DNA from: Romanomermis culicivorax
Taxonomy: Eukaryota > Nematoda > Enoplea > Mermithida > Mermithidae
Reading direction: 5' to 3'
Assembly: GCA_963922205.1 (NCBI GenBank)
Contig: CAWUHX010000171.1
Coordinates: 1 to 64,000 of the forward strand
DNA length: 64,000 nt
Shown: positions 2,129 through 43,249 of the stretch, piece by piece
How positions within the stretch are numbered: the first letter of the stretch is position 1
How the letters are laid out: every line of letters starts with the position of its first letter
The notes under the pieces: model-generated
The model's input: only the letters and a program-made list of their open reading frames with translations
The model's database searches: none
What the model was told of the DNA's origin: nothing
Position numbers and translations under genes: made by a program

Positions 2129-5100
2129 TCATTTAGTCCAACCATAAGGAAATGTACAAAAATTATGTTTCAAAATACGTTCATCATATTCTACACGAAA
2201 TTTTTTCAAAGTTTTACGAGTAACAACTTTAGGATCTTGCTGATGCTCTATACAGAGACTATGTACATTTACTTCTTCTTTTCCATTGTTTTTTACAAAA
2301 GCAAAAACCATTTGATGAAGTGAATAAAAATTAACTTTTTTCATAGTATCTGATGACAAAGTGATACCACAGACTTTGATTACGTGATGGTATTGGTCTG
2401 TAGATGGGCTGTACAACCTGTAAGCGTAATTTTTAGGACCTCCACTGACGAATTCGGTAATGTAAGATCCAGAACCATATTCACGTAACTCCTCAGTCAT
2501 TTCACCAAGGCACCAACCAGTGGGTACCTGATATTGTTGTTTGTCAACTGTTGACAGGTAAATAATACTATCCGTGTCAAAATACAATACTCGACTTTTT
2601 AATTGCTCAATGTAAGAATATAACTTTAGTCGAGCTTGAGCAGTTGTATAAGCTGCAATAACAGCATTATTATTCCCCATGACTTCCGCAAGATCATCAT
2701 GTTGACAATATGTTGTTGACACCAATTGTTCATTGATTAGTCTAACATTCTTAATAATGTTGGCCGCATTCATCACAAGTTCAAAATATTCTTTGGGAGC
2801 ATTGTGCATAACAGTCTTATCCATATGGTTTCATTGACCAAACTAAAAAACATAAAAAGAATTAAATAAAATACAAAAACTATGCAAAGTTGCCTTTCCC
2901 CAGAAAGAATTTAGCACTAATTTCACCAAAGCCCTCTTTCCAGGATTTTTTAAAATTTTTGAAGGATCCAATGAAATATTCTCACGATTGTAGACCTCCA
3001 TCTCGTATTCACGTTTTTGCTCAGCTGTCTGAGCTTTAGCAGGGTAACTTACTCTCCTATAAAATTACAATCAAATTCTGTCACATTTACATAATAATAC
3101 AAAACTTACTAGTTTCATTTTCATAAAGGTATTGACATATTGAGTAAATAAACCACCAGTGGGGTTTTTGGTTGGATGATATTGCTCAATATTATCATAA
3201 TGCCAAACCTCAAAAATCTTGAGGATCTGAAACAAAAATAATATACATAGGAAAAAAGAACCATTACCGTAACAATATACCTTGTATCCCTTCTCTAAGG
3301 CTTTGTATAATTCTATCGTAACCCATGTACCATCTAATGCTCTGTCTTGGTCATTATGCTCACATGTGGTCTTTTGTGAATCATGTGTGCAAGTTTTGTA
3401 TAAAAGATACAATAATTTACCACCGTGTCGATACGGTAGAACAGGATGTAAGAGTTTGGGAGGTGGTAAAACCATACACTTGATTAACCCCTCATAAGGT
3501 TGGGAAGTTGAGCTGACCTCTTCAAAATCTTCAGTAAAGATTTTTGGATGGCCTGTAGGGTATTTCCCATATTTGTTGACAAATGGGTATAAACTGCATA
3601 CATCTACATAATTGATCTTTTCTGCAGGTGTACCATCTTCATTGTACTTAATTTTGTGATACAATTTTACAGCATTAGTGTGACCGCCGAAGAAAGCTAA
3701 AACAAGAAAACTTTTGACAAAATGAAAAAAAAAACAATTCAAGATTTTACCTTCTCGAGGATTTGTAGGTTCAGGTATTTTGACTGTATCAAAAAATGTT
3801 TTCATTCCATGATCCGAGTGAAGTTGTTGTAAGAGTTCGCATTTCCACATTTCAACTATGCTATAACCGAGTGATTGAAGTTCCATAGCCCGATCAAAAG
3901 TGCATTCATATGCATCGACTGCTTTTGTATCATTATCGGCTGTTAATTGATGTCTATTTTTCATACATTTAGGGCAACCATGCCAATAACAACCGTAAAA
4001 TTCATAAATTGTGGTGCCTTAATGAACAAACAAACATATAGATATTAAAATTTCAAAAATTTAAACAAAATTACCTGATAAACCATCAACTTTGTATTTT
4101 CCAATTTGAACTTCACCACAGTTAAGTTTATGTGGAATATACAGTTTTTCATTTTTATGGGATAACCATTTCATCTATTTTAAGGCTATAACAAACTGTC
4201 TTTCTTCTTTACCATAACCTTTGTATGGTATTATACCAATACTATTTGGCTTCAAAAATAAATGTTGGAAAACTAAGTTGCAAGCACTAGCAATGGTTAT
4301 CGAATTTTCAAGAGGATCGACATTTTTTTTTCCATAAAAATATTGTGAAATTTCATGCAACATTGTCCTAAAACCTGCACATCGCTAGGACAGTAGTCAA
4401 GTAACTCATTATCAAAATTAAATTGACACCCCTAAACAATGACGCATTTAAATGCAAAACTTTATACTTTTGCAAACTTACTGCTTCAAGCTTTCCATTA
4501 TACCACTCCAGAAATGTGGCATGAGCTGCAGGTTTCATAGCATTGTAACCGTACATGTTGGGTGAAGGATATGGGCCAATATAGTCGTAATTTTCTTTTA
4601 TATTAAAGAAATGTGGGAAATATCCTTTACATATTTCACTTATTCCAAATGTTTTTGGTAAAGCCGCCAAAGGCATCGGAAGGAAGTTCAGAGAATCAAT
4701 AATTTTTATTGATCCTACTTTGATACACATCAACTCTAAACCTAAAATAAATAAATAAATGAAAATGAAAAAACTATAAACAATTTACTAATTCACCCTT
4801 ATTAATGATATGTAGTTTATGATGTCCATTACGATACAAAAACTGCATTATAAATTGTCCATCCAATCCTCGAGAATTATGCGCTATTGCTGTAATGTTT
4901 TTCATACCTTTTGCAAAAAGGTATCCACAGAAATCATTTAGACATATAAAGCCTTTGAAAATAGGCTCGCGTTGACCGCATGTATCGCAGCAAAAATTTC
5001 CCTCGCTTTGACGACACTGATCGCATACAGTATGGACAACGCATAAATTTGGTTCATGTTCAAACACATCCCCTAATTCCGTTTGTCGTAGAATTTTTTC

Positions 5101-12469: not shown

Positions 12470-13088
12470 TGTTGTGCAGGTCTTTCCTTAAGAGGCGTAA
12501 GAAAAGATTGGGTCTGAACTGACCTGTTAGAACTGATACCTTGGCTAAGCCTCGGTGATTAGTGCAACAGTCTGGTTATCCCCAGACCTACAACAACAAA
12601 GATAAACCTTGTTCTAAATACGGGGGCCTTACCAAGGACCTCCGCAGTCTCCTAGATGAGACAAGGAATCCCCTCAGGGATAAACTTACTTGGGTATAAC
12701 CCGAAAGGGGTTTCCCAAAACTTACTTGACGTACGCCGGCGCCTGGGCCTCTGGCCCTCTGCCTTCGTCGATCGCTAATAATATCTAAATAAACAAACGA
12801 ATATATTAAGCTATATGTCCGGCGAAATATGTAAAAAGAATGTGGGTATACCACAGTGCAATACTCATAAAGAACACAAGTTGCTGGGAAAATTGTATTT
12901 GGGGACGCCAGCAAAAATGTCAAGAAATATAATAAACAACGATATAAAGTGAAGAATGAATTTCACTATCTTTTTTGGTCTTTTGGTGGCCCTCCATTCT
13001 ATGCAAATGTCTGCGCCGCTGGTCGTCCCTTTCGTCGATTTGCATGTCGATTTCCCCACACGAATTGGCATCAACAGGGTGCCCAACA
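12470..13088 (-). repeat. 3' LTR of the first Gypsy element
   Basis: 619 bp, beginning TGTTGTGCAGG and ending CCCAACA on the plus strand, so TG...CA on either strand. Compared with the copy at 26,496-27,114 I count about seven single-base differences, roughly 99% identity, indicating a recent insertion. Short ORFs inside it are shared by both LTRs and are not genes. Confidence 0.96.
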
Positions 13089-13857: not shown

Positions 13858-16800
13858 TCAAGGTCTACCTTGATAGTACCCCCTCTGACCTGGTTGGCCT
13901 CGGGTATGACCTCCATCTTGGCCTCGATTTTGGCCTTGTTGGCTCCCGCCGCGTCTACCTAGCGGCATAAAATTCGGATTATGGAATTGAGCATCCGGGT
14001 CTTGACCTTGGTGTTGCCAGGTTCCTCGGCCTCCGTAGGGTCGCTGAGGGCGCCCTCTGAAGCCTCCTCTGGGTTGACCTTGGTCATACCCCGGTCTAGC
14101 CCTATACGGGGCCGGGTTTGAGAACATATCGTCTCTCCCCTGCTGCCTTTGACCACTGCTAGTGGAGCTGCTGCGTTGTGGTTTTTGTGTCCGGTAAGTT
14201 GAATTAAGAGATTTTGATGAAATTGATTTTGACCGAGAAAGCGGACTTTTGTAAGAAGTGCTAGCAGCTTCACTATATGACCTCTGGCTGGTCGTAGCCG
14301 ATGATTGTTGTATCATCGGTGGTTGTTTCTTAGCCGGAGGGAGTCTAGGCACTTTAAACTTACTTGGGCTCTTGGCAGCCGTTCGCTGATATTTATCAGC
14401 TTGCGACTTGTCATCGCCTGGTGCCTTCCTCTTAACACCCATCTGGTTTAACCTTTGCGAGCCCATAAAAATATATTGATTAAAGGCTGCAATGTAGACA
14501 TCGTCTACGGGGTTTCCCTGGGCCTCAACGACTAGTTGTCTGTTCGCAAACGAACACGCCTGGGCATACCACCTACCAATTGCCGTTGGCGTGATCGGAG
14601 CGAAGTCCAACTGTAGAAAAATCATTAGGGTCACATACCTAATGGCCGTAAAGACGTCTGAGGCATCGTAGTCCTGAAGCCATCTGGGGATGAGAATTAA
14701 GATGATCCATTCCCAGATCTCCTCAGGGATGCGCTCTCCGTCAAACATAAATCGGCCCTGCATTTCGAATTGCTGGCGGTAATTTTCGTGAATCTCGGCC
14801 ATAGCGTCATTGACCATTCTGTAAATTATCGGCCGTTCTTGCCGATCAAAGGCGAAATAATTGGTGACCTCTGGATTTTCAAATGAGATCGGCCCAATTA
14901 AGCGCCTTTGTTCCCGTTGCCACTCCCAATAATCAATCAGAGTTTCAGCTAATTGACCCGGAGTGACAAACTGCTGTGGTTCCCTTTGGGGTCTACTAGC
15001 TACCACATTCAGTTTGACCTTCTTGATCAATTTCTCCTCCGATTCAAGATCGGGCTTCACCAATACGCTTCCCCCAGGTTTGCTACATCTTGCGGTATAG
15101 CTGGAGGGCACCGATTTGCTTTTGCCAGATGAAGTACTAACCTCTCCGCCGGTTTTCGATACCGTTCGCGTCTGAGTGTACGAAGTTGTCGCAGTGGACC
15201 CTGTTGTCCTATCCGATTTTGTCTGGCCTATGGAGGTCTCCATTCGCGTCTGACTTTTTGAAGTCTCCGTTCTCGTCTGACTCTTTGAAGTCTCCGATCT
15301 CCACTTTTGGCTCGTCGAGTATTGTGGGGTCGTTGTTTCTTCGGCCGTATCGTAGGCGTCGTTTTCGGATCCGGTGGCGGCCGCTCCTTGTTGCTGCTGT
15401 CCTTGAGCTGCAAGTCTGCGTCGCTTGGCCTTACCTATCCTCTTTCTGCGCCTTACCTTTTCCTTGGCCAGGTGTCGGATAAATTTTTCCGACATACCTT
15501 CAGCTAACATCTGCTGAACTTTGTCTGGGGAATAAATTCCAGGAATACCTTCCTCGGCAATTCTTCCCCTCCTCATCAGCTCTGTCGCTGCAATGGCTGA
15601 ATCTGAGCTATCGTCGGCTAGTGCCTGCTCCTTCAGCTTCCTTTGGATTGCCCTCTGATGCAGGAATTCCTGCTGCGTCAGCCTTCTCTGTTCTTGAATT
15701 TTGGCCTGTAGGGCCTCTTGCTTCGCTTGTCGGTCATGATCCTTAGGATCTTTGGCCTTCACAGGTATCTCCTGGGATGCTTCCTGCATCTTCTCCAGTC
15801 TGACATCGATCCCTGACATTTTAGTGACTGCTTCGTCAATTTGAGTCTGGATTTTTTCCTCCTCAAGAGCCTGTTTCTGAGTCTTGGCCTCCATCGCATC
15901 CTTATTCTCTGATGTCTGGCCCTCAGATTCCAGAATTTCACCCTCTTCTTCTTCTTCAACATCCTCCTCTGAACTGGACTCAGAGTCTGAATTTCGTATC
16001 TTCGGCAGGAGCTGTTTTACTTTAGCTGGTAACACAGCTGGTGCCGGAGGTACAGACTGCATGATGGTGACAACCTCTGGCTCAGGCTCCGCCGGTTGCT
16101 GTACTTGAGGTACTTGAGTCAGCTGTGCCACCGCTGGTTGGATTGGCGGCGGCACCACGACAACTACTGCAGCTGCCTGCGTAGCAGCAGTGTCCAAAGC
16201 TGGTGTGGCTTTGACCACTGGGGCTAGCGCCTGCGGCTGCGCTTTAACCTGTCCCGTCCCTCCGGCTTGCGCCGTTTGGGAAGTTGAGAGACGATTTACC
16301 GGTACCTTAGATATTAACTCACCGGCTGGGGTATATGTTAATGTATACCCGGGCATTTCCGAAGCGATTGTTCTCTCCCGGAAGCTTTTGCTGACAAACT
16401 CCGGTCTGAGCTCGAGCGGATTTCTTGGTGCGTAGGTAATTGGGTAATCGGTCGGCGATGCGTCTTCCGTCATGGGATAACGCAGTCCTGGCGTCAAAGT
16501 CTCGAAGCCTACGTAGTAAAAAGTTACATAAAAATAAGGATTTACCTTGTAGGCTCCGTCCTTCAATAACGATTTGTCGTCGCCAATTTGTAGGATTTCC
16601 TCGGCTTCTCGAAATCGTAGCAGGACAAATCCGAACCGATTCTGCCATGCGTATACCCCTTTTTTAGATGGAAAGCAGGGTTCCGACGGCGGTAGCGTCG
16701 CTGCTAACTCTAAATAGTAAGCCAGGCGGTCGCCTGACTTCCAGGACATTTTCTTTATCATTTCCTGGCCTTCTTTAGTATAACTATTTAGAAAGTTATA

Positions 16801-19138
16801 GTTCAGCAGAGCGCTAGTTTCATAATCGCACTCCGCTCTGGAATGAGGCCATGCCAAATGATAGGCCAACGGCATAAATTTGCAGATGACCTCTAACTCT
16901 GGAAAGTTTCGCTCATCTAGCATACCTGAAATTTTTGCCAAGTTTGGCGTATAAAAATTGGTCTTGTAGGCCTGTCTATGACCCTCGATACCCACTGGGT
17001 AGTGGTTATTTGCTGAAAACACCTCTTCAGGTATTTGATCGGGCTTCCCGGCTTGTTGCCAGTATAGCTTGGTGTTTTCGTATAAAGTCAAAAAAATTTT
17101 CCCGTCTAAATCCCAATAGGTTCCACCTGACTTGAGATTTTCCAGGATATCTTTTGAAATGTTAACCCAGTCTGGTATCTGGACGTCCTGGATTTCGTCG
17201 GGATCACTATCTGTAGTGTATCCATCGTCCTTCATTGGTTTGTTATCTTTTGGAAGCAGTGGATTGAAGCCACTTGGCAGCTGAACTCCCTGAGGACGAA
17301 CTGGATTACACTCCGTGGGCGCGGTATAATAACCTGTGTTATTTCCCTGCATCTGTACAGCCCAACGGTTATACATTTCACACTTCATCATGTGATAGAC
17401 CATATTCGGCTGTACCTGATCGGTTTCCATAACTGGGGTACCTAGCCCCATTTCTCGATTCACGTTGCCCGGGATCATTAGATATTGTTGATAAAAGTGT
17501 AGGGCAACGGTGTTGATCTGTTTGGGATCCACCTTGTCATGGTCGAAAATCTGCATTTGCATAAGCAGTTGATCGGCCATGCCATAGTGAATGGCGGCAA
17601 ACATGACCAATAAGGAGTAGTATGCGTCTAGAGCGGCGTACCTTAGCTCTTCCGGCAATATACCCCTTTTGGCAAACCGATCACGGTTCGCCTTTAATGA
17701 AAAGTCATACTGGTAGGGGCCCACGTCTATCAGGTAGAATTCCGTGAACAGTCCCTTTAACCGAAAGGTTTCGGGACAGATACCTGTCTGAAAGCATTTT
17801 TTCTCCAGGTTTACCCCTACCATGGTGAGGGCGAAACGGTCTAAGTCAAAGTATCGACCCTTGGTCTTTCTTAGAAATTCCCGTAAGGGGACAGTTTTGT
17901 CCCTGTCCTTATTATCTCGCCCTGCACCACATACGTTATAGATACTTACCAGGTCCTCCAGTACGGAATATCCGGCGAAGAGCATATCGGAGTTCAAGAA
18001 GTCGTGGAGGCTGGTCCACTCTTTGAGCATCATCGACGTTGTATCAATAACGTAGGTTTGACCATTCGTTAGCGCGAAGCTGACATATCGGGCAAACTGC
18101 TTTCCCATTGGATTGTCGACCTCCCTTGTTTTGAACAAGGCGGCGACCTTATCCTGGTTGACTTTTTCAACGTCGAAGCCACAAACTGGTTGTCCTCTGA
18201 AGATTGATACTTCTCGGATAAAATGGAGTGTCTGGCTGACTTTCCCGATGTCTACCAATTTTGGTTCCTTGGGATTAGCCGGCCAGTACCCAAATGTGGC
18301 TTTAAACCACTGATCCAGTTCGTGGATTCGTACGGCCCGTTTGACGTTATAATCTAAACATAAGGTACTATTAATTTTAGTGTTTATTCCCCTTTTTCCA
18401 GCACATTTTCGGGTCTATACTACACCAGCACCACAACACCAAGCGGGTTAAGTTTCGCAGAAATTAAATTTAGTGCAGGTTGTTAGGTGAGCCACTGATA
18501 TACAAACATTGAGCTGGTAGGCAACTAACACCTTACCAAATCTTACCCTTGCTACCTCTATATGTTGGGGAGGGTAGACCTGATCCGATTGTCCACCACT
18601 TGATCGGACACCAATCTCTGACCAGCTGCTACGCTCCATTTATGGCGCTGTATTTACAATTTTTATAGCGCTCCAGATTGATAATTTTTACTGAATTTGA
18701 TATCGAAAAAGTGATATGATTTGATTTGAAAATAAATAATTTTTGATAAATTTTTGAATGATAAAACTTTAAAACGGGCTGAACCCAAGGTTCTAGGTTT
18801 CCCTTGAATCGTATAGCTCTCGATGGTATCAGGTATATTTCCAAATTGGAAATTCCCTGCTTGGCTTTGAGCTTCCGCTTCTCAGTACTCCCATTTTTCG
18901 TTCCCTCTAAGTTCTAACCTCGTCTGCCCTTTGGGGCGCCGAGCTGGTCTTCCAGTGACTTCTGGGCATTACCTGCGGTTTCCAAGAATATTTGATAAAA
19001 ATAAGTTCGAAACTTACCGTCGATGAAGAAAAAACGGTTGTCTTGGCGGTGCTGGGCCCTGCCATATTCGACGTGGCGCTCTGTGTGCGACCACTCGCGC
19101 GTCGGAGCTTGTTGGCGGTTCCGCGCGCCCTTTCCCAT
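13858..19138 (-). CDS. Spliced ORF3 of the Gypsy element: DEDDy 3'-5' exonuclease-like protein
   Basis: The main exon is open from 18,414 down to 13,858 without an early ATG. A 40-codon upstream ORF from ATG 19,138 ends at a consensus donor (G|GTAAGT, 19,018/19,017), and the main frame has an acceptor TTTAG at 18,354-18,358. Joining 19,138-19,018 to 18,353-13,858 is in phase and gives about 1,538 residues. The N-terminal domain matches RNase D/WRN-type exonucleases: GFDVE (Asp and Glu at 18,174 and 18,168), GYSVLED (Asp at 17,955) and [11 protein letters not shown] (Tyr at 17,640, Asp at 17,628), so all DEDDy residues are present. Next come a helical segment, a Pro/Gln/Val linker, an acidic patch ([16 protein letters not shown]), a coiled coil, a basic NLS-like RRRKR...KRRR, a second helical domain, and an Arg/Gly-rich tail. 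It occupies the place where env lies in retroviruses. A cellular exonuclease was probably captured. Confidence 0.85.
18354..19017 (-). other. Predicted ORF3 intron
   Basis: On the minus strand it starts GTAAGTTT and ends ATGTTTAG, 664 bp. The split codon is completed correctly (G from exon 1, AT from exon 2). No continuous coding frame crosses it. The donor lies downstream of the pol stop, so this is a local intron; reaching the upstream ATG as first start codon would need a further splice from the LTR leader or an internal promoter, neither of which I can see. Confidence 0.6.
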
Positions 19139-19562: not shown

Positions 19563-22500
19563 TCAGCGCGAGATCGCGCATAGATTCGCCTTGAGCGAAT
19601 TTTCAAATGATTTCATTTGATTTGGCGCTCCAGTCGTAACTGTTTGTGCCATATTGGAAAGTGACGTATTTTCGTCACGTGGCGCGTCCTGATTGGCTCG
19701 CGCTATTCGCGGCAAGACCCTAGTGGTCTCGTAACGAAAATGTTTCAACCTGCTGATTGAAACAGTTTGGCGATTTAGCGGGTTGTCCCAATTTACAATG
19801 GTGACAACGTTCTCTGCTTCTCGCGAAATGTCCGTAACTATGAACGGACCGGACCATGGTAGTCCTAGTTTTTTCTGCTTGTCTACTTTGAGCAGAACCC
19901 AATCCTTTTCTTTAAATCCATTTTGTTTGGACTTTTTATCGAAGTATTTCTTCGATTTTTCGGCAGCACTCTGGATATTTTTGGCAATATCCTCGTAAAG
20001 GTTGACTAAATGATTGGTCAACACAAATTTGTATGCCTCAGCATTGCTGTCCGGCATTACAATATCATATGCTTTTGATAAGTTTAACCCGAAGGTTGCC
20101 TCATGACCTCTAAGCAACGAAAATGGGGATTGCCCCGTCGCTGCGTGTGGTGTGGCATTGTAAGCAAACACCACAGCTCTCAAGTATCTTGGCCAGTTAT
20201 CCTTTTCCTCGATGGCCACCTTTCTGAGCTGTTTGATGAGTGTCTGATTGAACCTTTCTACCATACCATTTCCTTGTGGATGGTAGGCTGTTGTAAAAAT
20301 TTTCTGACACTCTAATAACTTGCAGATATCTTTCATTAGATCTGAGGTAAAACAACCTCCTCTATCGCTGAGTAATCTCCGTGGAGTCCCGTGCCTAAAT
20401 ACAATAGCTTGTAGAAAAGTATCTACAACGGTGCTAGCTGACTGATCTGGGATCAGTTCAGCTTCAACCCACTTTGTAAAATAGTCTTGAAAGACTATGA
20501 CATACGGTCTCTTCTCACTGAGTGGAGAAATACCCACGATATCCACTGATACTATATCAAAAGGACCTTGTGGAATAATTGGTATCAGCGGCGGAATTTC
20601 TGTGTTTCCCTGATTAGCCATTTTACAAACTGGACAAAACTTGATCCAGTGCCTGACATCCTTTTCAATTCCAGGCCACCAGAACCGTTTTTTTATCATA
20701 GCAAGGGTCCGTTTGAACCCCTGATGAGTCATCATCACGGCACCGTGGTACTGGTGCAAAGTATTGTCCCTAAGGCAGGATGGGACGACCACCTGATCAT
20801 CTGATCCCTGTCCGGCTTCGCGGTATAACACTTCATTCTGGATATTAAATCCACTATGATACTTGGTTGTCCCATTTGGACCCAATCTATCGAAGTATGG
20901 TCGTAGTACCTCATCTTTTCTCTGCAAGAGGGCCATGAGATCATCTCTAATTAGCCCTTTTGGCAATTCATCTTCTTTGGGGTCTGCCAAAGTAAACTCC
21001 TGTTCTTTTTCAGGGTATAACCAGGTTACTCTTTTTTCCTTACCTTTGTCCTGGTTTCCCCTATTTACGTTTTCGTTGACCTGATTGCCGTCAGGCTGGA
21101 TCTGAGCCTGATTACTCTTCTCCGCTTCCTTCGCCATGCTCCTTGTAGTTACGGCATTCACCAAGTCTGCAGGCGAGTTTGATTCTGGATCACCCTCAGA
21201 ATCTTCTGGATAAATCTGGGTGAATCTCGGACTCATACCAGTCCTCTGATTCCTCTTACCTTTTGGCTCCGGATATAACGGAGTACCGTCTTCAGGATTC
21301 GGATCTGTCAGAATTCTGAATCTCTTCACCAAATTGAGATGCTTTTTCTCAATTAGCTGCGCCTCAAGATCTTTCAAATTTTCGGACTCTCGTTTATCCT
21401 TTGAGAACATGTGTTCCCATTTTGGCGGTATCTTTTCCGCTTGATCGTCTGGTTCATCCATCCTGGACAAAAAGTCTGCCATGGCATTTTGTTTTCCAGG
21501 CACATACTCTAATTTATGGTTGAACTGAGAGATGAATGAGTACCATCTCTTCAACTTACCATTGGTCATGGCGTTGACCTTCATAGACAACAAAGGTTTG
21601 TGATCAGTTCTTATGATCACTTTATGACCTATTAAGTGGTGCTTGTATAACTTCAAGCCATACACAATTGCCAAGCCCTCCCTTTCCGTGGCTGACCACT
21701 TTTTCTCATCCGCCTTTAAAATTCTGCTATTATAAGCAATTACCCAGCGGTCTGACTTGGTCTCCTGATAAAGGGCTGCTCCTAGTGCCGTTCCGCTGGC
21801 ATCTGTCTGAAGGACAAAGTCCGCCGACCCGTCCAAAACCGGATACCTAAGGAATGGCACAGACAATAGTGCTTCTTTCAGGCTCCTAAAAGCCTGATGG
21901 TGAACCTCCGTGACTTCCCAAACACAGTTCTTCCCAGTTAATTTATACAACGGTTCAGCGTGTTTAGCCAAACCCGGTATGAACTTTTTACACCACTGCA
22001 ACATACCTAAAAACCTTTGCAGTTTACGTTTAGACTCTGGGAATGGGAAATCATTTATAGCTTTGACCTTTTTCGGATCTGGGGAAACTCCATCCGAATT
22101 TAAGATATGTCCTAAAAAATGAACTCTCTCAGGCAGGAATTCACACTTCTCCGGCTTCAAGGTCAAATGAGCCTTTCTGAGAGCCTGCAGGACTAGCTCT
22201 AGATTAATTAGGTGTTCCTCAAACGTATTTGAGAACACAATTATATCGTCTATGTAGACTAGACAGATTTTCCAAACATATGGATGCAAAACTCTTTCCA
22301 TCATACGCTGGAATTCGGCTGGCGCATTTTTTAGGCCAAAGGGCATGACTTTAAATTGATAAAGCCCTTCTTGGCATATGAAAGCAGTTTTTTCCTTGCT
22401 TTCTTCATCCATTGGCACTTGCCAATATCCTGATTTGAGATCTAAGGTAGTATAAAACTTGGCCTTACCTAAACAGTCTAGATAGTCATCCATTCTAGGA

Positions 22501-24752
22501 ATGGGATACTTATCATCCTTGGTAACGTCATTTATACCCCTAAAGTCCACTACTGGTCGCTTGGTACCATCCTTTTTACCCACAAGGAATAACGGAGCTG
22601 CCCAAGGCGACTTTGATGGCTCAATTACACCCTTTCTGAGCATATCTTGCACATGCTCACGAACATGTGGCCGTAAATTTATAGCAGTCCTGTGGTACCT
22701 TTTTGCCACAGGGGCTGCATCGCCTGTATTGATTTTACATGTCAGGTAGGGTGTAGTAGTTGGAGGATCATTGGGCAAGCTGAACACGTCTCTATATTTT
22801 GCGAGACATCGTAGAGCTTGTTCCAATTGTTCAGATGGTATGTTGGATTTAGCCAGCATATTGTACAAGGCTTCCTTGAACTCTTTCTCATCCAATTGAG
22901 TCGAATCAGGTCTAGCCTGGACTGCACAAGTTTGCAGCTTCTCCAGATCCTCAACTATTTTCCCCTTAAGTTGATCTTGGTTATCAGTATCGCACAACAC
23001 TGAATTAGTATGGCCAATTATTTGATTTCTTTTCAAATGGCATCCTGATCCTGTGTTGTTGGATACCATAACAACAAAATCATCTTTTGTACCATCTACT
23101 ATGGTACTATCAATGTGGAACCTTTCTTCGTTCTCTTCAGACTCTATTATGATTCCATTAAGGCGATTTTCGCCTACCTTATCCCAAAGCTTTGCCCTCA
23201 GAAGTATATCAGTACCACTTGGTAAGTAGATGGGATTCACACTCACCACTGGCACCGAAACCTTTAGCAGGCAAATCTTTGGCTGGTATTGGTCGGCGGT
23301 GCTCATTGTGGATTCCGCGGCGCTCGTGGTCATGACCTCTCCACAATTCGATTGGGGCTGGTCCGGCCTCACGTATATCGGTTGTTGACGGTTGTTAAGC
23401 GTCATCGTCCTATTCCTGAAATCTATTATGGCTCCTACCTGAGGATGAGCCAAAAAGTCTGTTCCTACAATAACATTTTCACCTGCTTCAGGAATTACAA
23501 TTGCTTTAACGGGGAACTGTCCACACAATGTATCCATCCTAAATTGGATATACCCATGGGCTTGGACTGTCTTACCGTTGGCTACAGTAACATTTAATAT
23601 CCTCGGATATTCAGTGTAATCCGGGCCCAAAGTTTCTTTCAGAAACTTAGCGGACATGACAGTGCACTGAGCTCCTGTGTCAATTAAAGCCATTGTCTTA
23701 GGACCTCCTATAACAACCTCAATGTGGAATGGGGCTGTTCTGGGGTACGTATCCAGCAAATGTTGTTCCTGGGGACTAGCTGGTGTGCCTCTCCTTATTA
23801 CTTGTATTGATGGTACTACAGGTTGTGGTGCAATTGCATTCATTTGCACAATACTACCTAATACAACATTTGGGCAACTCACTCTCTGATTTACTTCACC
23901 TAAAGGACTCATTTGAGATTGCCTTGCAACCATAACACTCGAATAATCCTTCTGAGGTGGCTGATTTGTGAATTGACCCTGTTGCAGAGTCTGAGTCGGA
24001 CCCATAATCGCCTGAGGAGGCTGAGGATGCTGTAATGCAGCTTGCTGTTGGTATTGCTGCATCTGTTGGAACTGCTTCTGCAGCTCCTTCTGCTTTTTAA
24101 ACTCCAGAAATTCATTATAATCTGAATTCTGTTGGTAACTCTCCTGGCTATCCTGATAACCTGAATAGCCTATATTATAAGCACCTCTGCCTCTGCTATT
24201 AAAGTTGGCATTTGGGTAACCTCCTCTACCTCTATAGCTACCTCTAGCAAAATTGTTGAAGCCTCCCCTGTTGAAACTAGGGAAGCTGGCTCTGCCTCTG
24301 CTCCTGCGCTCGGACAATACTCTCAATGTCCTGCAGTCTGCAGTATTATGTGTTATGTTCTTGTGGAACTCACACCATGGCTTTGTCGGATCTCGGGAAA
24401 CTTGACCTCCCTGACTGGTACTAGGTATGGCCACATCAGACCGATTTTCCGCTTGCCTGTTATCAACCTTTTGCTGGAGTTGGTCGAACCTTTCGACCAG
24501 TTGTACCATCTCTTTAGAGATTTTCAATAGAAGAGATTCTTTCATACCTTTTTCGGTCTGAGCCCTAGGGGCTTCCCGAACTGGAATCTCCTCTATTTCA
24601 GGAGAATCACTCCTTGACCTTTGGGTTTGGGCCTGTACCTGATTACCTACGGTTTGGTATGGTTGCCGAAACCTTTGCCTCTGGCCTTGTTGATATCCTT
24701 CTGACTGGTTCCTAGCAACTACGGCAATTTCAGGATCATGCCCACTAGGCAT
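19563..24752 (-). CDS. Pol polyprotein of the first Gypsy element
   Basis: 1,729 residues from an internal ATG at 24,752; the frame is open upstream to the TAG at 24,864-24,866 that ends gag. Order: a Cys-His-His-Cys knuckle (CEFHKNITHNTADC, residues 127-140), a Gln-rich segment, aspartic protease IDTGA (about residue 357), reverse transcriptase with LPFGLKNAPAEFQ-like motif and YIDD (about 832), RNase H TDASGTALGAAL (about 980), integrase zinc-binding HHCC (about 1,330-1,375) and catalytic DDE core (VDIVG, DRGG, NGMVERFNQ), then a GPF-like C-terminal module. No stop inside, catalytic residues present; likely functional. The zinc knuckle belongs with Gag, which bears on how the gag stop is interpreted. 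Confidence 0.95.
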   Translation of the reverse strand: MPSGHDPEIAVVARNQSEGYQQGQRQRFRQPYQTVGNQVQAQTQRSRSDSPEIEEIPVREAPRAQTEKGMKESLLLKISKEMVQLVERFDQLQQKVDNRQAENRSDVAIPSTSQGGQVSRDPTKPWCEFHKNITHNTADCRTLRVLSERRSRGRASFPSFNRGGFNNFARGSYRGRGGYPNANFNSRGRGAYNIGYSGYQDSQESYQQNSDYNEFLEFKKQKELQKQFQQMQQYQQQAALQHPQPPQAIMGPTQTLQQGQFTNQPPQKDYSSVMVARQSQMSPLGEVNQRVSCPNVVLGSIVQMNAIAPQPVVPSIQVIRRGTPASPQEQHLLDTYPRTAPFHIEVVIGGPKTMALIDTGAQCTVMSAKFLKETLGPDYTEYPRILNVTVANGKTVQAHGYIQFRMDTLCGQFPVKAIVIPEAGENVIVGTDFLAHPQVGAIIDFRNRTMTLNNRQQPIYVRPDQPQSNCGEVMTTSAAESTMSTADQYQPKICLLKVSVPVVSVNPIYLPSGTDILLRAKLWDKVGENRLNGIIIESEENEERFHIDSTIVDGTKDDFVVMVSNNTGSGCHLKRNQIIGHTNSVLCDTDNQDQLKGKIVEDLEKLQTCAVQARPDSTQLDEKEFKEALYNMLAKSNIPSEQLEQALRCLAKYRDVFSLPNDPPTTTPYLTCKINTGDAAPVAKRYHRTAINLRPHVREHVQDMLRKGVIEPSKSPWAAPLFLVGKKDGTKRPVVDFRGINDVTKDDKYPIPRMDDYLDCLGKAKFYTTLDLKSGYWQVPMDEESKEKTAFICQEGLYQFKVMPFGLKNAPAEFQRMMERVLHPYVWKICLVYIDDIIVFSNTFEEHLINLELVLQALRKAHLTLKPEKCEFLPERVHFLGHILNSDGVSPDPKKVKAINDFPFPESKRKLQRFLGMLQWCKKFIPGLAKHAEPLYKLTGKNCVWEVTEVHHQAFRSLKEALLSVPFLRYPVLDGSADFVLQTDASGTALGAALYQETKSDRWVIAYNSRILKADEKKWSATEREGLAIVYGLKLYKHHLIGHKVIIRTDHKPLLSMKVNAMTNGKLKRWYSFISQFNHKLEYVPGKQNAMADFLSRMDEPDDQAEKIPPKWEHMFSKDKRESENLKDLEAQLIEKKHLNLVKRFRILTDPNPEDGTPLYPEPKGKRNQRTGMSPRFTQIYPEDSEGDPESNSPADLVNAVTTRSMAKEAEKSNQAQIQPDGNQVNENVNRGNQDKGKEKRVTWLYPEKEQEFTLADPKEDELPKGLIRDDLMALLQRKDEVLRPYFDRLGPNGTTKYHSGFNIQNEVLYREAGQGSDDQVVVPSCLRDNTLHQYHGAVMMTHQGFKRTLAMIKKRFWWPGIEKDVRHWIKFCPVCKMANQGNTEIPPLIPIIPQGPFDIVSVDIVGISPLSEKRPYVIVFQDYFTKWVEAELIPDQSASTVVDTFLQAIVFRHGTPRRLLSDRGGCFTSDLMKDICKLLECQKIFTTAYHPQGNGMVERFNQTLIKQLRKVAIEEKDNWPRYLRAVVFAYNATPHAATGQSPFSLLRGHEATFGLNLSKAYDIVMPDSNAEAYKFVLTNHLVNLYEDIAKNIQSAAEKSKKYFDKKSKQNGFKEKDWVLLKVDKQKKLGLPWSGPFIVTDISREAENVVTIVNWDNPLNRQTVSISRLKHFRYETTRVLPRIARANQDAPRDENTSLSNMAQTVTTGAPNQMKSFENSLKANLCAISR

Positions 24753-24863
24753 ACCTACTTCATTAATTACAATAGGATCCTGTTGTGTACCCTTGGGTCC
24801 ATATCTCTGGAAGGCATTCCTATATCTACGTTCAATGTCATGAACTTCAACTGCTAGATCATA

Positions 24864-26399
24864 CTAAGTTCTAAAGGTATGCTTCGAATTCTTAAGTTCA
24901 GACTGGAAGGTGGGGTCACTCTTATATATGAAGGTGTCAATGATCAGTCTCTGTTTAGACTGGTAGTCCAAATCACCTTTAACTAGTTCCACTAATATAC
25001 TGACCCTTTTTAAAAACTCTACGGCCTGTTCATTGGGTCTTTGTTGGATCTCAAATAACTCCCTGGTTAACATTTCCAGGTTACATTCAGGTGCAAAGAC
25101 ATTAATGATGGCTCTCCTGGCCTCCCTATAGGTCATGTTGTCTCCTGCAACAGCCTTCGGTCTACCTTTAGAAAGCCTCAGCAGTGCTTCATACTTAGCT
25201 GCTTCGGGTGTATCCCTACGGAATTCCCCTTCAAGTGCTGTTAAGAAGCTAAGCACCTGCTGATTTACCATACCCTCATCTAAAAGTTTGGGTAACACAC
25301 CTTTAACGATATTCCTGACTACAATCTCTTGTGCCAAATTATTTGATGGCACTTCCCTCTGATCATAAGCTGCTGTTAATACTGGATCAAGATCAGAGTT
25401 CAGGGATTGCAGCATGACTCTATTTGGATCTCGTTGAGGTGGTACACCTCCTTGATATGATGGCATATTGTCTTTGTCAAACCTGTAATCCCTATATGGG
25501 AAACATGCCAATTGATCTGGTCTAAGGGTATTTGGATCAACTATATTTCCTCTACCATCATAGACCACTCTAGTTAAAGTTGGATGCTGCGAAGCTATCT
25601 GACTTTGATTCCTGAAGTCTGCCGATTGCTCAGCTCCTTCGAATCGAAGATCTCTAGCTGGACCTTTCCAACTTTTGGGCTCAAAGTTAAGCCTTTGCCT
25701 TTCATCAACATCAGGCCTATTACTAGGCCCTGCGCCTGCATTCATTTCAGCAACGAGACGGTTGTCTCTTTCTGCACCCCTATTACATGGTCTAACCTGT
25801 CTATCCGGCTCCTGTCGGCGCCTGTCAGCTTCCCTTTTGTTGTCCTCTGTGGCGGCATTCGCGATTATGTCGAACAAGGCTTCGACGGTCCCTTTCAACT
25901 CGCGTAGCTGCGTCGCCAACTCTTGATTGGACATCTCGGGAGCTCTTTCCTGCGGTTGGAATCGCTCTTGTTCCTGGGGAATCCTCTCTAATCTTTGATC
26001 GATTTCGGGGTCCCTTTCTTCCAAATTCGGTCGATTTTTGGGCGTAACGACGTCCCTTTTTGGTCCTGCTAATTCGACCTTTGGCGGCGGTGACCTTTTG
26101 AAATTTTGCTGCGGCGGTCCATCGGCGTCTGGGTTCGGATTCGCCGGGCCTGCCTCCTGCGGATCGATGGCAATCGCTGGTGGTCGGTCAATTGGTACGC
26201 CTGCATCTTGAGGCGTAAAATGCATTGCATTCTGCTGCAATGGTTGAACCCTCGCGGGAGTTTGATCTGGGATCACTGGGTCAGGAGCAGCATGCCGTTG
26301 CTGATCTCCGTCTCCCAAATTGACTAGATTCCCAGCACTCGCCACTCTGGGTGGTGATCTAGGTAAAGTATTACCTCTCAGTATCCTTTCGTTAGGCAT
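24864..26399 (-). CDS. Gag (capsid part) of the first Gypsy element
   Basis: 511 residues from ATG 26,399. A proline-rich N-terminus and an Arg/Glu-rich middle lead to a retrotransposon-gag capsid-like helical region (about 360-505) containing FLTALEGEF and [18 protein letters not shown]. It ends at TAG 24,864-24,866. The next 111 nt stay open in the same frame and lead into the zinc knuckle and protease, so gag and pol differ by this one stop codon. Either the stop is read through in a fraction of translations or it is a nonsense mutation in an originally single gag-pol frame; its place before the nucleocapsid-type knuckle favours mutation. Confidence 0.88.
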
Positions 26400-26495
26400 T
26401 TTAAATCCTGCTAACTTTCTGTAGAAACCTGGAGGATTTTCTTTTCTCCTAGTCTGACTACGAAGTTCCGTGGTAAGGAGTTAAAAGCCACCACT

Positions 26496-27114
26496 TGTTG
26501 TGCAGGTCTTTCCTTAAGAGGCGTAAGAAAAGATTGGGTCTGAACTGACCTGTTAGAACTGATACCTTGGCTAAGCCTCGGTGATTAGTGCAACAGTTGG
26601 GTTATCCCCAGACCTACAACAACAAAGATAAACCTTGTTCTAAATACGGGGGCCTTACCAAGGACCTCCGCAGTCTCCTAGATGAGACAAGGAATCCCCT
26701 CAGGGATAAACTTACTTGGGTATAACCCGAAAGGGGTTTCCCAAAACTTACTTGACGTACGCCGGCGCCTGGGCCTCTGGCCCTCTGCCTTTGTCGATCG
26801 CTAATAATATCTAAATAAACAAACGAATATATTAAGCTATATGTCCGGCCAAATATGTAAAAAGAATGTGGGTATACCACAGTGCAATACTCATAAAGAA
26901 CACAAGTTGCTGGGAAAATTGTATTTGGGGACGCCAGCAAAAATGTCAAGAAATATAATAAACAACGATATAAAGTGAAGAATGAATTTCACTATCTTTT
27001 TTGGTCTTTTGGTGGCGCTCCATTCTATGCAAATGTCTGCGCCGCTGGTCGTCCCTTTCGTCAATTTGCATGTCGATTTCCCCACACGAATTGGCATCAA
27101 CAGGGTGCCCAACA
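26496..27114 (-). repeat. 5' LTR of the first Gypsy element
   Basis: 619 bp, identical in ends and length to 12,470-13,088. Differences from the other LTR include GTCTGG versus GTTGGG near 26,598, TTCG versus TTTG near 26,790, and CCCTCC versus CGCTCC near 27,018. The element is transcribed right to left from here. Confidence 0.96.
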
Positions 27115-30977: not shown

Positions 30978-33900
30978 ATGGCGGAAAAGTTTGGCTTCTT
31001 CCGCCATAAGGTGAAAAAGTCCATGCAAAAACTGATTAAAACAACAGAAAAAACACCTCGAGCATACAACATGACTCAAATTTCAAGAAAAACCATTCAA
31101 ATATTGTATCCAAATTTGATGCCATTATTGTGCAGAGAGATAATATGCTCTCCATTGCTAAATTTGAGCCACTATTTCAAACAAAGAACGAGTTTCGAGT
31201 TCCATCTCAAAGTCTTATAATTTTTTCAAATTATTACTATTTTTAGGGCTCAGAGAAGTGCTCAATCGAGTCTGGGAAATTTATCTACAGATGGCGATGA
31301 CACTGGCCCTGATTGCCAGAATAGATCAAGTATATTTAAACATATAATTTTCTTCTGTTTGCTGAAGTTATCTCTCATTTTCTATATTTTTGTTCCCTTT
31401 TTCGATCAAATTTTACATGTCTTTATTTTCATCTCATATTTTTCATCTTTTAATTTGTTTTGATGAACAGCAGGCACTAACAGTGAACCACTGGATATTA
31501 GCGATATCCCCCAACTTATTCCACGAGAGACCCAAAATGAATTTTTATCTCCAGTCAAGAAACGTAAGCAACAATGAACTGTTTTTCACACTCTCATTTA
31601 AGGCACAATTTTTATGTAGGCGCCAGTATCACTCATTCTACGCCTCTCCAAACCAACTCCAATTTGAAATCTATGCAAATCGCATTGAAAGCAAATCAAA
31701 GAATCGAAAATTTGTCGTTAGAATTGACAATAGTATCCAAAGAATTGGCAGACGTGAAAGCTAAGTTACTTTTTTCTGAAAACTCTATTTCTGACCTGAA
31801 AAAAGAAAATTTATCCAAAGATTTAGTGATTTACAATCAAAAAGAAAAAATTTCAAAACTTGAAGCACTCTTGTTGCAGCAAAAAGTCTCAGATCATGAT
31901 TATGTTTTTAAGAATACTCAGTCAACTAATAATATTCTAGTAGAATTTCAGAATGACAGGAAATTGGCCACTATCAGCACTAAGTTGGAAAAAGGTTTTC
32001 ACTCAACGCTAGAGCCAGAAAAAGCATATTCAATGCTTACACACAGACGTGACAAAAACTACCATTTGGAATTGCTAAAGAATTTTCTAATCCATATCTG
32101 CAAAGGCGATATCATGCCAGATGTTGGACTTTGCTTAGGTGAGCATGGAGAACTGAAGTTGCAAATTAATACTAAGTTGTATTGTAGGAAATTCTTCATT
32201 CCTTTGATGAGTCAAGGTATTTTCCACAGATATGCTCTATTACAAATTATTTGAAGAATTATTAATTTCTGTGGTCAGTGTCTTGTGCTGGACAATAATT
32301 GATTTATTATTTCTTGCCATTTTATACATGTCTCAATAGTTTTGCATAAATTGTTAAATTATCAGTCAAGATATATTTCTGAATGGGCGATTTTTTTCGC
32401 TTTTGTTCCACAATTGTCTATCCTTCTAAATGACTTCTTTCATTGATTTAGCTGATTTTTTGCGCCAAAATTACCCGATTATGGAATATTTGAGCACTAC
32501 ATTTGGAAAAGTATCCAAGTTACGTCTTGATCCATCAGATTCGTTGGATTTCAAACTTTGCTTAGGTAAGCAGTACTTAGTTAATGAAATAATTCAACCC
32601 TATGGAATACAAAGAGGGCCACTCATGAAAAATTGTTATCTCCAACCAAAAAATTTTTTGTGGATTGTGCTTGGAGCCTCCAAGCATGATGCACAACATT
32701 TTTTCTAATGCATCACAAAAATTTCAAGCAAAAATTTCCCTACCTGCTCAGAAACCTGATGCCATTATTGATTTTATTTTATTCTCTATATCCTCTAGAT
32801 CTCAGTTTCTGGAATAATTATATTCACAATGAAATTTTCATTTCAAAATTGTCAACATTCTGTGGATTTATAGGGCTTTCGTGGGGCGATTACAGGAAAA
32901 TCAAATGTTTCATGTCAAAAATTGATTACGATTTCCTTGCTCCCACCAACAAGGCGATTGAAGAGACAGCTGAACGAAAGGTCAAGTCAGAATTGAAGTT
33001 TTCTTTCATTTCTCTCTGCGAGAAATATGAGAATGTCGAGAGACCTCTTTTGATTGTATCTGAGTTAATAGATTTCATTGAGGAATCATGGGCAGAGATT
33101 GTTAGCAGAGGCGAAGTTATTGATGATGAAAGATTTGGCGGAAAAATTTGGATTGCCATTGGTGGCGACAATGGTGGAGGAACAACAAAATTGACACTAA
33201 GCTTTATAAATGTTTCTAAGCCAAACAGTGTGCATAATACTAAGCTAATTGGTTTTTTTGAGGGATCTGATAAGGCTGACAACCTTCGAATCGCCTTCAG
33301 CCGATTGTCGCCTGCAATTCAAAGAATCAGTGATTCCCTAACTTTACCATTCCAAGAATCCAATCAGACAATAGAGCAAAGAAAAGTCGAATTATTTTTA
33401 GTCGGCGACACCATGTTCCTCTCATATTTCAATGGTCATCAAGGTCCAGCGTCATCGTTCCCTTGTTTATTTTGCCATATTCAACTCAGCGACCTGAAGA
33501 AGACTGGCTATGATAAGATAAGTTCTTTAAACCAAAATTTCAAAGTTAGAGATATCTTCCCAAAAAAACTGGCTCATTCTCAAATTCAGTATCCTTTGTT
33601 TCCCATTAAATTAGAAAACATTGTTCCACCTGTTTTACATATTCCTCTTGGCTTGTTTAATGATTTTTTCAAGCAAATTCGAATTTTGTGCAAAAAAATC
33701 GACTTGAGATCAGAATTCAATTTTCCATGCAAAAACGACGATGTAATGAAGAAGGAAAGTTCAGTTCAATCTTTAGCAGGTTAGTACCTAATTTAGCTTA
33801 TGATTAGATTTCAAAGTAGAAAGGGATTTTTAAACTTTGGCATATGAAAATCAAGAATTTGATATTTCACTAAAAACTTTGAAGTTCAATACAGTATTTG

Positions 33901-40371: not shown

Positions 40372-41266
40372 TGTAACGTACCTGCTAAAACAGTACTGTA
40401 AATATGTAGCATACTGTATGTGATAGACATTTATTAGATATTATTTTATTTTCACATTTTATCGTCTCAAGGGTGTCTGGGATTCACACCCAAATATTCC
40501 TACAAAATTACATGAAGTACTTTATTTTGATCCGTTCACACCCCAGTAGCCCAATTAAGATGCCCCAATTAATTTGCACAAACAGCAGCTGTTCCCCAGA
40601 ACCTACACTAAACTACACATTCCACAGCTACCGTAATCCCCCGTAAAAATCGTAAACAACACCTGCACACAGTAAAATACATAGAAGCCCCGCCATACAG
40701 TAGTCTCAAGTGTAACGGTAGCGGCGGCCCCACAAAACATGTGTATACAGAGAAACCGATACAGGAAGCATGCACAAAAGCTCAAAGGTGTGGCCAAGCC
40801 CACCGTAGAAAGCAAGCGAAGCACTGAAAGCATACAGTACCAGGAAAGCATTAGAGAGGCGTAACTAAGTAAGCATAAAAAGCGTAGCAGGAAACGACGA
40901 TTGGCGGAAGAAGATGGACAGAAGCTCGACCTCCCGTGACGCCCAGGGAGTGGCCAAAAACGTCGTATAAAAGAAGAAGCAAAGCATGATTTAATTATTC
41001 TTGTAGTTATTATTTTGTGAATTTTGATCCGCGGCCGTTCGTATTTTATTTGCAAGCTACCGTCTTCGAAAGCAATTAAACCGTATCGTCTATTTTATTT
41101 GCAAGCAAACGCGCCATCCATTTGTGTCATTCGACGTTCAAGCGACTGTCAATCATTCGTGTATTTTCGTATTATCGTACCGCCCGCGCCCCGTCCCGTT
41201 ATTCCATCCCCGCCGTATCCACCGTTGGTTGAAAGTAAAGTACCTCACACAAATCTGGTCTTTACA
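40372..41266 (+). repeat. 5' LTR of the second Gypsy element
   Basis: 895 bp, TGTAACG ... TTTACA. It matches 48,724-49,618 and, more loosely, the solo LTR at 52,962-53,774. The antisense ORF of 150 codons here recurs in the other LTR with several substitutions and is not a gene. Confidence 0.96.
40966..40973 (+). promoter_or_regulatory. LTR TATA box
   Basis: TATAAAAG is conserved in all three LTRs of this family, at 40,966, 49,318 and 53,532, although sequence around it in the solo LTR has diverged. This is the likely core promoter for the genomic RNA, which would start roughly 25-35 bp downstream. Confidence 0.7.
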
Positions 41267-41287
41267 TATTTTGGTGACCGTACCGTT

Positions 41288-43249
41288 ATGTTAACCACTG
41301 GAACTCCCTGCCCCCAATTAGGTGTACTCTTATCCGGGCATTTAGAAGCATTAGATAATACAGTAGTAATCATTTCCTACAGTAAGACAGTATTCGTAGA
41401 AAGCAAGCTGGAAATCGCCCCCAACGAAACATTAAGCGATACGATACAGAAATCCCAGCGTAAACCAAGAATGACCCACCAAACGCAAGATCATTTAGGA
41501 GAAATCGTTAGAGAACAGATAATTGATTTATTTTCAGAACATTTTTGTATCCTACGCACACAATTGAATCAGAATACAGTAAACCCTACCCTAATAGACG
41601 ATCTAAGAACAGCAAACATTCTTAATAACATGGCAAATAATTTCTACGCGAAACCTACAGTATTCACGGGCGGTGTAACCCAACATTTTGGTGAATGGAA
41701 CAAAAGATTAGAACAATTCATGGCACTCCAACGCATGAAAGATACAGACGTACAGTTAAAGTTGGCATGTTTAGAAATTCATTTAGGAGGAGCTGCGTTA
41801 GCAAAATTCAAAAGTTTAGCAAATTCCGAAAACCCTCCCCACACATACGAGCAGTATAAAGTGGCATTACAGGCAATTTTCCCAAACAATCGAGATAATG
41901 AGCTACATCAACAATTTTTACGCGAAAGAAAGCAAAAGCGATCAGAAACAGTAACGGAATTCTTATTTGATCTAGAACATCTCGCAAACCTCGCCTACCC
42001 TAACTTTAACACAGACGCACGAGAAATGATCATAAAACCCCTCTTTGTAGAAGGCATGCAAAACGAAATCAGGGAAGCAATTAAGTATAGACAATTCCCG
42101 ACTCTAAAAGAAATGTCAGACGAAGCAGCTTACATTGAACAGCAAATTCTTAGAAATGAGTTAAAATCTAATGCCCTTCCATTTAAACCCCTAAAACCCG
42201 AACCCATCTTTTCCCTAACCAAAAATACAGACCAACAGGATCTTTTGCATCAGTTAGAACAACAAGTAAAAGATTTACAGTTGCAGATCAAACAAAAACC
42301 CCAAACCCCACAACAGAGTAGCTACAACAATTTCAGTAACAATACTTTCAGCTGGAATAATGCTTACAGGAACAATACCACCCCTAGGCAACCCACATGC
42401 TTCCAGTGTGAACAAATTGGACACGTAGCTGGTAATTGTAAATCAGTAGGCACCCCAAAATCATGTGAAATCTGTTTTCGTAATAATCACAGTACGCCTG
42501 ATTGTAAAAGCCGATGCATCCACTGCTCCCAAACAGGACATAGATCTGATAATTGCCTTTCGAAACCCTACTCCAATTTTCAATGTTTTCTATGCAAGCA
42601 GAGAGGTCATACAAGCAGGTACTGTCCGAATCAACAGAGTCGTAATATTCAAAATTGCATTGAGTACAGGCAACCCCAACCCCTCATGGACATTGATGAC
42701 CCCACATTTTACTCAAAATTACCCACCATAAATAACGGCCCTCAGACTACTTTAGGAACTATCATGCCCAACACCCACCGCCGTAGTGACGAATACGTCT
42801 TCGACCTGGACGTACCCGATTGGTGCGCCATGTCACCACCCCCCACGCCTGAAGCCGCAAAAACCGAAAAATCGCCGCCCACCATCCCCGTAGGCTACAA
42901 GATCCCCCGAAAGCAAGACACCACACCGCCCACCGCCCCGGAAACCCTGTTGAAAACAGGCCGCAACTTGTTATCCCTTCTCCATGGCCTGACCCCCGAA
43001 CCCTACCAATTTCGCCCCCTCCAAACACTTCTACCAACCCCCACAAGTAAGCAAGTCCAAACCCCATCCCATGACTCAACTTCTAAAGTTTTACAGACCG
43101 TTCAGATTGCAAACCGGCCACCCCCTCAGCCCAAAACCGAACAACACCAAAAGCCGCCACGCCAAACCGGCCAGAACAAAAATATACAGTACCGGCCGCC
43201 TCCACTAAAACACTATATTGGCTGTTGTATTGTATATTTTTATGCATAA
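41288..43249 (+). CDS. Gag of the second Gypsy element, four zinc knuckles
   Basis: The frame is open from inside the LTR; the first ATG after the LTR is 41,288 (653 residues), with another at 41,471 (MTHQTQDHLGEIV). A retrotransposon-gag capsid domain (about residues 130-310, with FGEWNKRLEQFMAL and EFLFDLEHLANLAYP) is followed by four CCHC knuckles: CFQCEQIGHVAGNC, CEICFRNNHSTPDC, CIHCSQTGHRSDNC and CFLCKQRGHTSRYC (42,400-42,650). One or two is usual in Gypsy elements. A proline-rich tail ends at TAA 43,249. The next frame is open from 43,087, an overlap of about 160 nt in the -1 register; no canonical slippery heptamer is obvious. Confidence 0.92.
   Translation: MLTTGTPCPQLGVLLSGHLEALDNTVVIISYSKTVFVESKLEIAPNETLSDTIQKSQRKPRMTHQTQDHLGEIVREQIIDLFSEHFCILRTQLNQNTVNPTLIDDLRTANILNNMANNFYAKPTVFTGGVTQHFGEWNKRLEQFMALQRMKDTDVQLKLACLEIHLGGAALAKFKSLANSENPPHTYEQYKVALQAIFPNNRDNELHQQFLRERKQKRSETVTEFLFDLEHLANLAYPNFNTDAREMIIKPLFVEGMQNEIREAIKYRQFPTLKEMSDEAAYIEQQILRNELKSNALPFKPLKPEPIFSLTKNTDQQDLLHQLEQQVKDLQLQIKQKPQTPQQSSYNNFSNNTFSWNNAYRNNTTPRQPTCFQCEQIGHVAGNCKSVGTPKSCEICFRNNHSTPDCKSRCIHCSQTGHRSDNCLSKPYSNFQCFLCKQRGHTSRYCPNQQSRNIQNCIEYRQPQPLMDIDDPTFYSKLPTINNGPQTTLGTIMPNTHRRSDEYVFDLDVPDWCAMSPPPTPEAAKTEKSPPTIPVGYKIPRKQDTTPPTAPETLLKTGRNLLSLLHGLTPEPYQFRPLQTLLPTPTSKQVQTPSHDSTSKVLQTVQIANRPPPQPKTEQHQKPPRQTGQNKNIQYRPPPLKHYIGCCIVYFYA

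Follow-up and report, generated by a model that had tools for sequence, protein, structure and literature searches.

The window analyzed here (i.e., positions 1 to 64,000 of contig CAWUHX010000171.1, a stretch of 64,000 nucleotides [nt] from a genome of 359 Mb in 595 contigs) carries a Ty3/Gypsy long terminal repeat (LTR) retrotransposon with a third open reading frame (ORF3). It is highly probable that ORF3 encodes a spliced auxiliary protein of this Gypsy lineage with an apparently intact N-terminal DEDDy 3'-5' exonuclease; this confidence covers what ORF3 is, not its substrate. LTR retrotransposons with an exonuclease, described in bdelloid rotifers, are hereby reported also from an apparent nematode, where they occur in many copies and several divergent families within one genome. 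What could have been an oddity of one group thus begins to resemble a strategy that retroelements have adopted recurrently.

The catalytic motifs of ORF3 are D61/E63 (GFDVE), D134 (GYSVLED), and Y239/D243 (YAALD), with residue numbers counted from residue 1 of window positions 13858 to 18354. All five catalytic residues are in register with those of relatives and are intact in the window copy and in all seven rows of a sister family, in agreement with the complete DEDDy set that a preliminary description of this DNA had reported at the ORF3 N terminus. In an alignment of 28 rows (gaps set apart), D is found at position 61 in 25 of 25 rows and E at position 63 in 24 of 25, Y239 is conserved in 25 of 28 (with one H and two S), and both D134 and D243 are invariant (28 of 28). 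Two loci of a further ORF3 family (L051 and L057) retain D, E, D, and D and carry S at the tyrosine position.

The window protein does not reach the cutoff of the exonuclease family PF01612 (23.6 bits) and gives no match to it up to an E value of 10. A fixed cutoff for a single sequence is a weak criterion, and window ORF3 is therefore still assigned to PF01612 by homology and fold. The route to its relatives was a PF01612 search of its own genome (E value up to 10), which returned 119 places, 95 of them above the cutoff (six of the 95 only together with in-frame neighbors); the window is not in this list. The sister family (L040 to L048) shares 30 to 31% identity with window ORF3 over approximately 1,300 to 1,380 residues at seven of its nine loci (the exceptions are L044, with 38% over 709 residues, and L048, which matches in pieces) and 44 to 47% in the exonuclease domain. 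PF01612 matched L040 and L041 at 1.5e-4 and 6e-4 (22.1 and 20.1 bits), slightly under the cutoff. Family E (L052, L053, L054, and L063) matched at 9.4e-8, 2.2e-7, 9.8e-6, and 6e-4, and three of these four loci lie above the cutoff, with 32.5 bits for the family. The window domain was linked to family E by BLAST (best match, 58.2 bits and 7.5e-14 in a comparison of four sequences only) and by hhalign (97.1%), while a profile of the window plus eight sister sequences scored 76.5 against family E (maximum of 200 column shuffles, 11.3). Family B contains the locus L010, which matched PF01612 at 4e-14 (53.2 bits); it scored 33.95 against the window family (200-shuffle maximum, 15.3), in an alignment that keeps the three Exo motifs in register. 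Since these profile scores exceed the shuffle maxima, the domain match is more than chance. A profile built from 28 domains matches WRN (8.8e-7) and mosquito Nibbler, a mut-7 homologue (1.3e-5). These sequence comparisons show that window ORF3 is homologous to the PF01612-positive ORF3 families.

The exonuclease domain was modeled as a fragment (17446 to 18354, minus strand; core at approximately residues 29 to 268) assigned by PF01612-family homology and AlphaFold. The model from the 28-domain alignment has a predicted local distance difference test score (pLDDT) of 74 and a predicted template modeling score (pTM) of 0.77, and its fold matches include the WRN exonuclease, the DNA polymerase I exonuclease, Nibbler, EXD1, RNase D, and Egalitarian (including Egalitarian-BicD-RNA structures). 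The modeling supports an RNase H-like exonuclease fold near WRN, Nibbler, and RNase D for the N-terminal domain, and the structure prediction sides with the earlier assignment.

ORF3 begins approximately 0.4 kb past Pol, in the env position. Its predicted first exon (121 nt; 19018 to 19138, minus strand) starts with an ATG at 19138 and is followed by the donor GTAAGT after 19018, and the predicted intron (664 nt; 18354 to 19017, minus strand) closes with the acceptor TTTAG, which ends at 18354; the GT and AG ends are found in all eight copies. Exon 2 with its stop codon (13858 to 18353, minus strand) is an open frame of 1,498 codons, within a stop-to-stop frame of 1,518 codons (13858 to 18414, minus strand). 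The ATG, donor, and acceptor are kept in eight of eight aligned copies (the window being one), and all six sister-family copies have a short first exon and an intron at the equivalent place, with matching phase as judged by eye. An acceptor-like sequence, TTTTTCAG, lies approximately 68 nt upstream of the ORF3 ATG in all eight copies, which may point to splicing of the ORF3 message from further upstream. A search for the spliced leader SL1 gave no match, in control genomes likewise, and neither Rfam nor tRNA scanning produced a match in the window.

An intronic block of 199 nt (18469 to 18667, minus strand) has no substitution in the eight copies, in contrast to the synonymous sites of ORF3, which differ by approximately 9% among copies; in this block, the seven other copies have a 13-nt stretch that is absent from the window copy. 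RNA folding of positions 18430 to 18680 was not unusually stable (z-score, -0.35) and thus gives no support for a structured RNA. In blastn comparisons with the sister family, no match overlapped the block, although a 22-nt match (E value, 0.22) was seen elsewhere in this intron. The block may have a part in promoter function, splicing, or export.

The predicted ORF3 protein comprises an N-terminal, apparently intact DEDDy exonuclease, a conserved middle, a poorly conserved low-complexity linker, and then a hydrophobic-rich conserved region and an arginine-glycine-rich (RGG) tail. Identity with the protein of sister locus L041 is 44% at residues 501 to 600 and approximately 33% at residues 1101 to 1300. 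The tail is a low-complexity, RG/RGG-rich segment comprising the last 200 residues (13861 to 14460, minus strand). Exon 2 encodes 10 RG dipeptides, 7 of which fall in this tail, and an RGG-rich tail also ends the L041 protein.

The element is a young Ty3/Gypsy LTR retrotransposon that lies on the minus strand. Its 5' LTR (26496 to 27114; 619 bp; ends TGTT...AACA) and 3' LTR (12470 to 13088) are identical at 613 of 619 positions and bracket Gag and Pol with TG...CA ends; the preliminary description of a Gypsy element with ORF3 in the env position and LTRs about 1% diverged is borne out by this comparison and by the Pol domains. A clean target-site duplication (4 to 6 bp in Ty3/Gypsy elements) is not apparent in the flanking sequences CCAAG and CATGT. 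Directly after the 5' LTR, the Gag ORF (24864 to 26480; 538 codons, stop to stop) has a weak Retrotrans_gag match (E value, 0.0088; under the Pfam cutoff), and one stop codon (24864 to 24866), which may be a read-through site or specific to this copy, parts it from Pol within a single frame. The Pol ORF (19563 to 24863) shows the Ty3/Gypsy domain order in Pfam (i.e., protease, 381 to 473; reverse transcriptase, 762 to 921; RNase H, 985 to 1114; and integrase, 1360 to 1529), with matches to RVT_1 (5e-39), RT_RNaseH (6.5e-28), Integrase_H2C2 (2.5e-17), rve (1.3e-14), and gag-asp_proteas (1.3e-9). No dUTPase match was listed for Pol in Pfam up to an E value of 10. A CX2HX4HX4C-like motif was seen by eye in the Pol frame. 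Among the names shown for 120 listed relatives of this Pol, there is no nematode, a result that is neutral as to the identity of the host.

A genomic search with ORF3 (31 of 6,249 candidates scored) yielded 31 full-length matches, namely, the window (100%) and 30 others (97 to 98%), and 29 of the 31 lack an internal stop. With the domain alone, at least 130 matches were found (97 to 100%, window included), a lower bound because 130 of 3,226 candidates were scored; 124 of the 130 have no stop in the domain. This Gypsy lineage is recently active. Among eight copies, the ratio of nonsynonymous to synonymous polymorphism (pN/pS) was 0.061 for ORF3 and 0.062 for the exonuclease, values biased downward because the eight copies are the best protein matches. 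In six sister-family copies, chosen by PF01612 score or frame length, the ratios were 0.17 (ORF3) and 0.15 (exonuclease), and that of the partial Pol of four of them was 0.19. Judged from these ratios, ORF3 is under purifying selection, and in the sister family the constraint on it is about as strong as that on Pol.

Flanking DNA covered 42 of the 119 PF01612 places (the 30 best-scoring ones and 12 chosen mostly for long open frames). Of the 42, 38 (including 26 of the 30 best-scoring places) have a Gypsy integrase upstream in the same orientation, and the four places without one (L012, L013, L032, and L039) are family-B sequences with just 1.5 kb of upstream DNA. At a 43rd place (family E), L064 beside L052, there is a frame-broken integrase 46% identical to that of the window. 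Host genes may be among the remaining 76 places. Gypsy Pol is thus followed, within a single genome, by no fewer than four divergent kinds of ORF3 (window/sister, E, B, and L051). Pol and the exonuclease appear to diverge together: sister Pol is mostly 64 to 68% identical to that of the window, set against the domain identity given above, and the 46% of the family E integrase is paired with 17 to 21% in the domain. This pattern is consistent with co-divergence, although it is no proof of it. Beyond this genome, ORF3 residues 1 to 500 were compared with 5.8 billion proteins, and none of 2,998 candidates reached an E value of 10 or less; scans of viral contigs with ORF3 and with Pol found no relative.

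TTAGGC is a nematode telomere-type repeat, and TGTGGG is the bdelloid repeat. Exact (TTAGGC)5 occurs 25,431 times in the genome (12,229 plus 13,202; reversed-pattern controls, 0 and 7), whereas exact (TTAGGG)5 and (TGTGGG)5 are absent. The host is thus probably a nematode. Of the more than 25,000 TTAGGC 30-mers, many of those listed are far from contig ends, i.e., telomere-type repeats are widespread at interstitial sites.

Nibbler and MUT-7 are cellular small-RNA trimming genes, whereas the exonuclease domain of the window sits in a retroelement ORF. The window domain is 16 to 17% identical to the WRN exonuclease and Escherichia coli RNase D, and its ExoII and ExoIII aspartates are 109 residues apart, compared with 70 in RNase D (i.e., 39 residues more). 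Retroelements are also among the closest described systems. Rodriguez, Kenefick, and Arkhipova reported in 2017 RNase D-like DEDDy ORF3s in the Juno and Vesta LTR elements of bdelloid rotifers, and also in Athena/Terminon (PMC5408684), so that the preliminary statement that no Gypsy family had been described with such an ORF does not hold. According to the same study, LTR elements acquired the exonuclease ORF at least twice, and its authors already proposed that the rotifer ORFs process RNA 3' ends or act in the manner of mut-7 (PMC5408684). A 2019 paper, citing Rodriguez et al. among others, describes the DnaQ-like 3'-5' exonuclease as an accessory domain that is well known in LTR elements (PMC6338049). 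Among the open-access papers retrieved, judged by their titles, abstracts, and selected passages, we found no report of exonuclease-bearing LTR elements outside rotifers. Juno and Vesta share with the window element the Gag-Pol-ORF3 order, an RNase D-like DEDDy ORF3, near-identical LTRs with TG/CA ends, and the presence of several families; they differ in having a dUTPase between protease and reverse transcriptase in all Juno, Vesta, and TelKA members (none was detected in the window Pol), LTRs of 159 to 551 bp (619 bp in the window element), and the motif DEED in place of DEDD (PMC5408684). The hosts probably also differ, the one of the window having TTAGGC and not TGTGGG repeats. In a comparison with Juno and Vesta by description only, the window element may further be set apart by an ORF3 of approximately 1,500 residues, with extra regions conserved in the sister family and the RGG tail. 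The Penelope-like Athena/Terminon elements are likewise retroelements with the same exonuclease type as an accessory ORF (PMC5408684, PMC6431247), but they have another class of reverse transcriptase and are not LTR elements.

Several results weigh against an intact exonuclease in ORF3. When the window protein is searched by itself, neither Pfam nor NCBIfam nor PDB sequences yield an exonuclease match, and the window-plus-sister profile matches none among PDB sequences. With hhalign, the single window sequence reached only 5.9% against family B, the comparison of family E with family B failed, and so did that of the window family with an RNase D profile, which was too narrow (it came from an E. 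coli RNase D search with 120 listed proteins, and the names shown were enterobacterial). AlphaFold failed for residues 1 to 660 with seven sister sequences (pLDDT, 32), and the alignment behind the good model contains PF01612-positive families. The 28-row alignment has one Q at E63 and the H and S replacements at the tyrosine position. The pN/pS ratio is biased downward, and Rodriguez et al. reported that such ORFs do not depart significantly from neutrality within a rotifer genome (PMC5408684). If the motifs matched by chance, or the ORF were a passenger in a single copy, the failure of the single sequence in the profile libraries tried would be accounted for; we give this reading almost no credence and rejected it in view of the transitive homology, the fold model, selection, and the many copies. 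An envelope-like function is also very improbable. It would suit the location after Pol and the predicted splicing, as in many env genes, but the highest 19-residue hydropathy means are 1.53 (in low-complexity sequence) and 1.50 (residues 1234 to 1252), with no convincing transmembrane segment, and no envelope Pfam match was found; an env protein was rejected on these grounds.

For the favored reading, a DEDDy exonuclease, intact catalytic residues and constraint suggest enzyme activity. ORF3 would have metal-dependent 3'-5' activity, its RGG tail might bring it to a ribonucleoprotein, and it would act on RNA 3' ends, either of the element's own transcripts or of small RNAs that silence the element. 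RNA is somewhat favored as its main substrate; within RNA, the present evidence permits no firm choice between processing of element RNA and counter-silencing. In the latter case, ORF3 would trim or destroy guides of the small interfering RNA or PIWI-interacting RNA type, or their precursors, and thereby oppose host pathways of the MUT-7/Nibbler type. We consider this a possible, if doubtful, explanation: the predicted fold is near those of Nibbler and EXD1, many ORF3 copies have open frames, and the TTAGGC repeats point to nematodes, a group with strong small-RNA silencing, but the same fold is used in many unrelated RNA and DNA tasks, and Rodriguez et al. reported no unambiguous tie of such ORFs to copy number in a rotifer (PMC5408684). 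The wider proposal, that Gypsy elements of one nematode genome, with no fewer than four divergent ORF3 families, have kept and diversified a DEDDy exonuclease (attached to an RGG tail in the window's family) that counters host small-RNA silencing, in reverse of the MUT-7/Nibbler role, is tentative and rather unlikely. It is unlikely, too, that the exonuclease strips untemplated nucleotides or a primer remnant from reverse transcription products before integration. The DNA-acting exonuclease domains of WRN and DNA polymerase I are among the best matches of the modeled fold; however, Gypsy elements generally do without an exonuclease, and Penelope-like elements have no LTR cDNA ends. The presence of the bdelloid ORF in Penelope-like elements (PMC5408684) argues against cDNA-end processing and is a mild argument for an RNA role. 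A use of the fold for RNA recognition or localization, as in Egalitarian or EXD1, would agree with the Egalitarian-BicD-RNA structures among the model's fold matches and with the RGG tail in two families, but this is improbable given the five catalytic residues intact in the window and seven sister rows, whereas EXD1 has been described as catalytically inactive (PMC5408684).

In nematodes, the probable host group, small-RNA silencing itself uses the DEDDy exonuclease MUT-7, and this silencing is well studied; thus, the question of why retroelements keep an exonuclease becomes testable.

Other mobile-element sequences were found in the window. A second retroelement (41021 to 48693, plus strand) has a Gag ORF followed by an ORF that opens with a 640-residue Monjiviricetes_fusion part (PF24664; 2.6e-16); protease/reverse transcriptase-like sequence follows by eye, so that a domain resembling a fusion glycoprotein stands between Gag and Pol. 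PF24664 also occurs in 5 of the 120 listed relatives of the Gypsy Pol (P0150, P0157, P0175, P0193, and P0210). A DNA polymerase type B fragment (3071 to 4018, minus strand; PF03175, 1.4e-13), which we take to be Polinton-like, lies approximately 8 kb from the Gypsy element. Positions 32690 to 33784 (plus strand) match DUF1280 (PF06918; 2.8e-23), which has been named as one of several newly recognized RNase H-like families located near transposases (PMC3985635).

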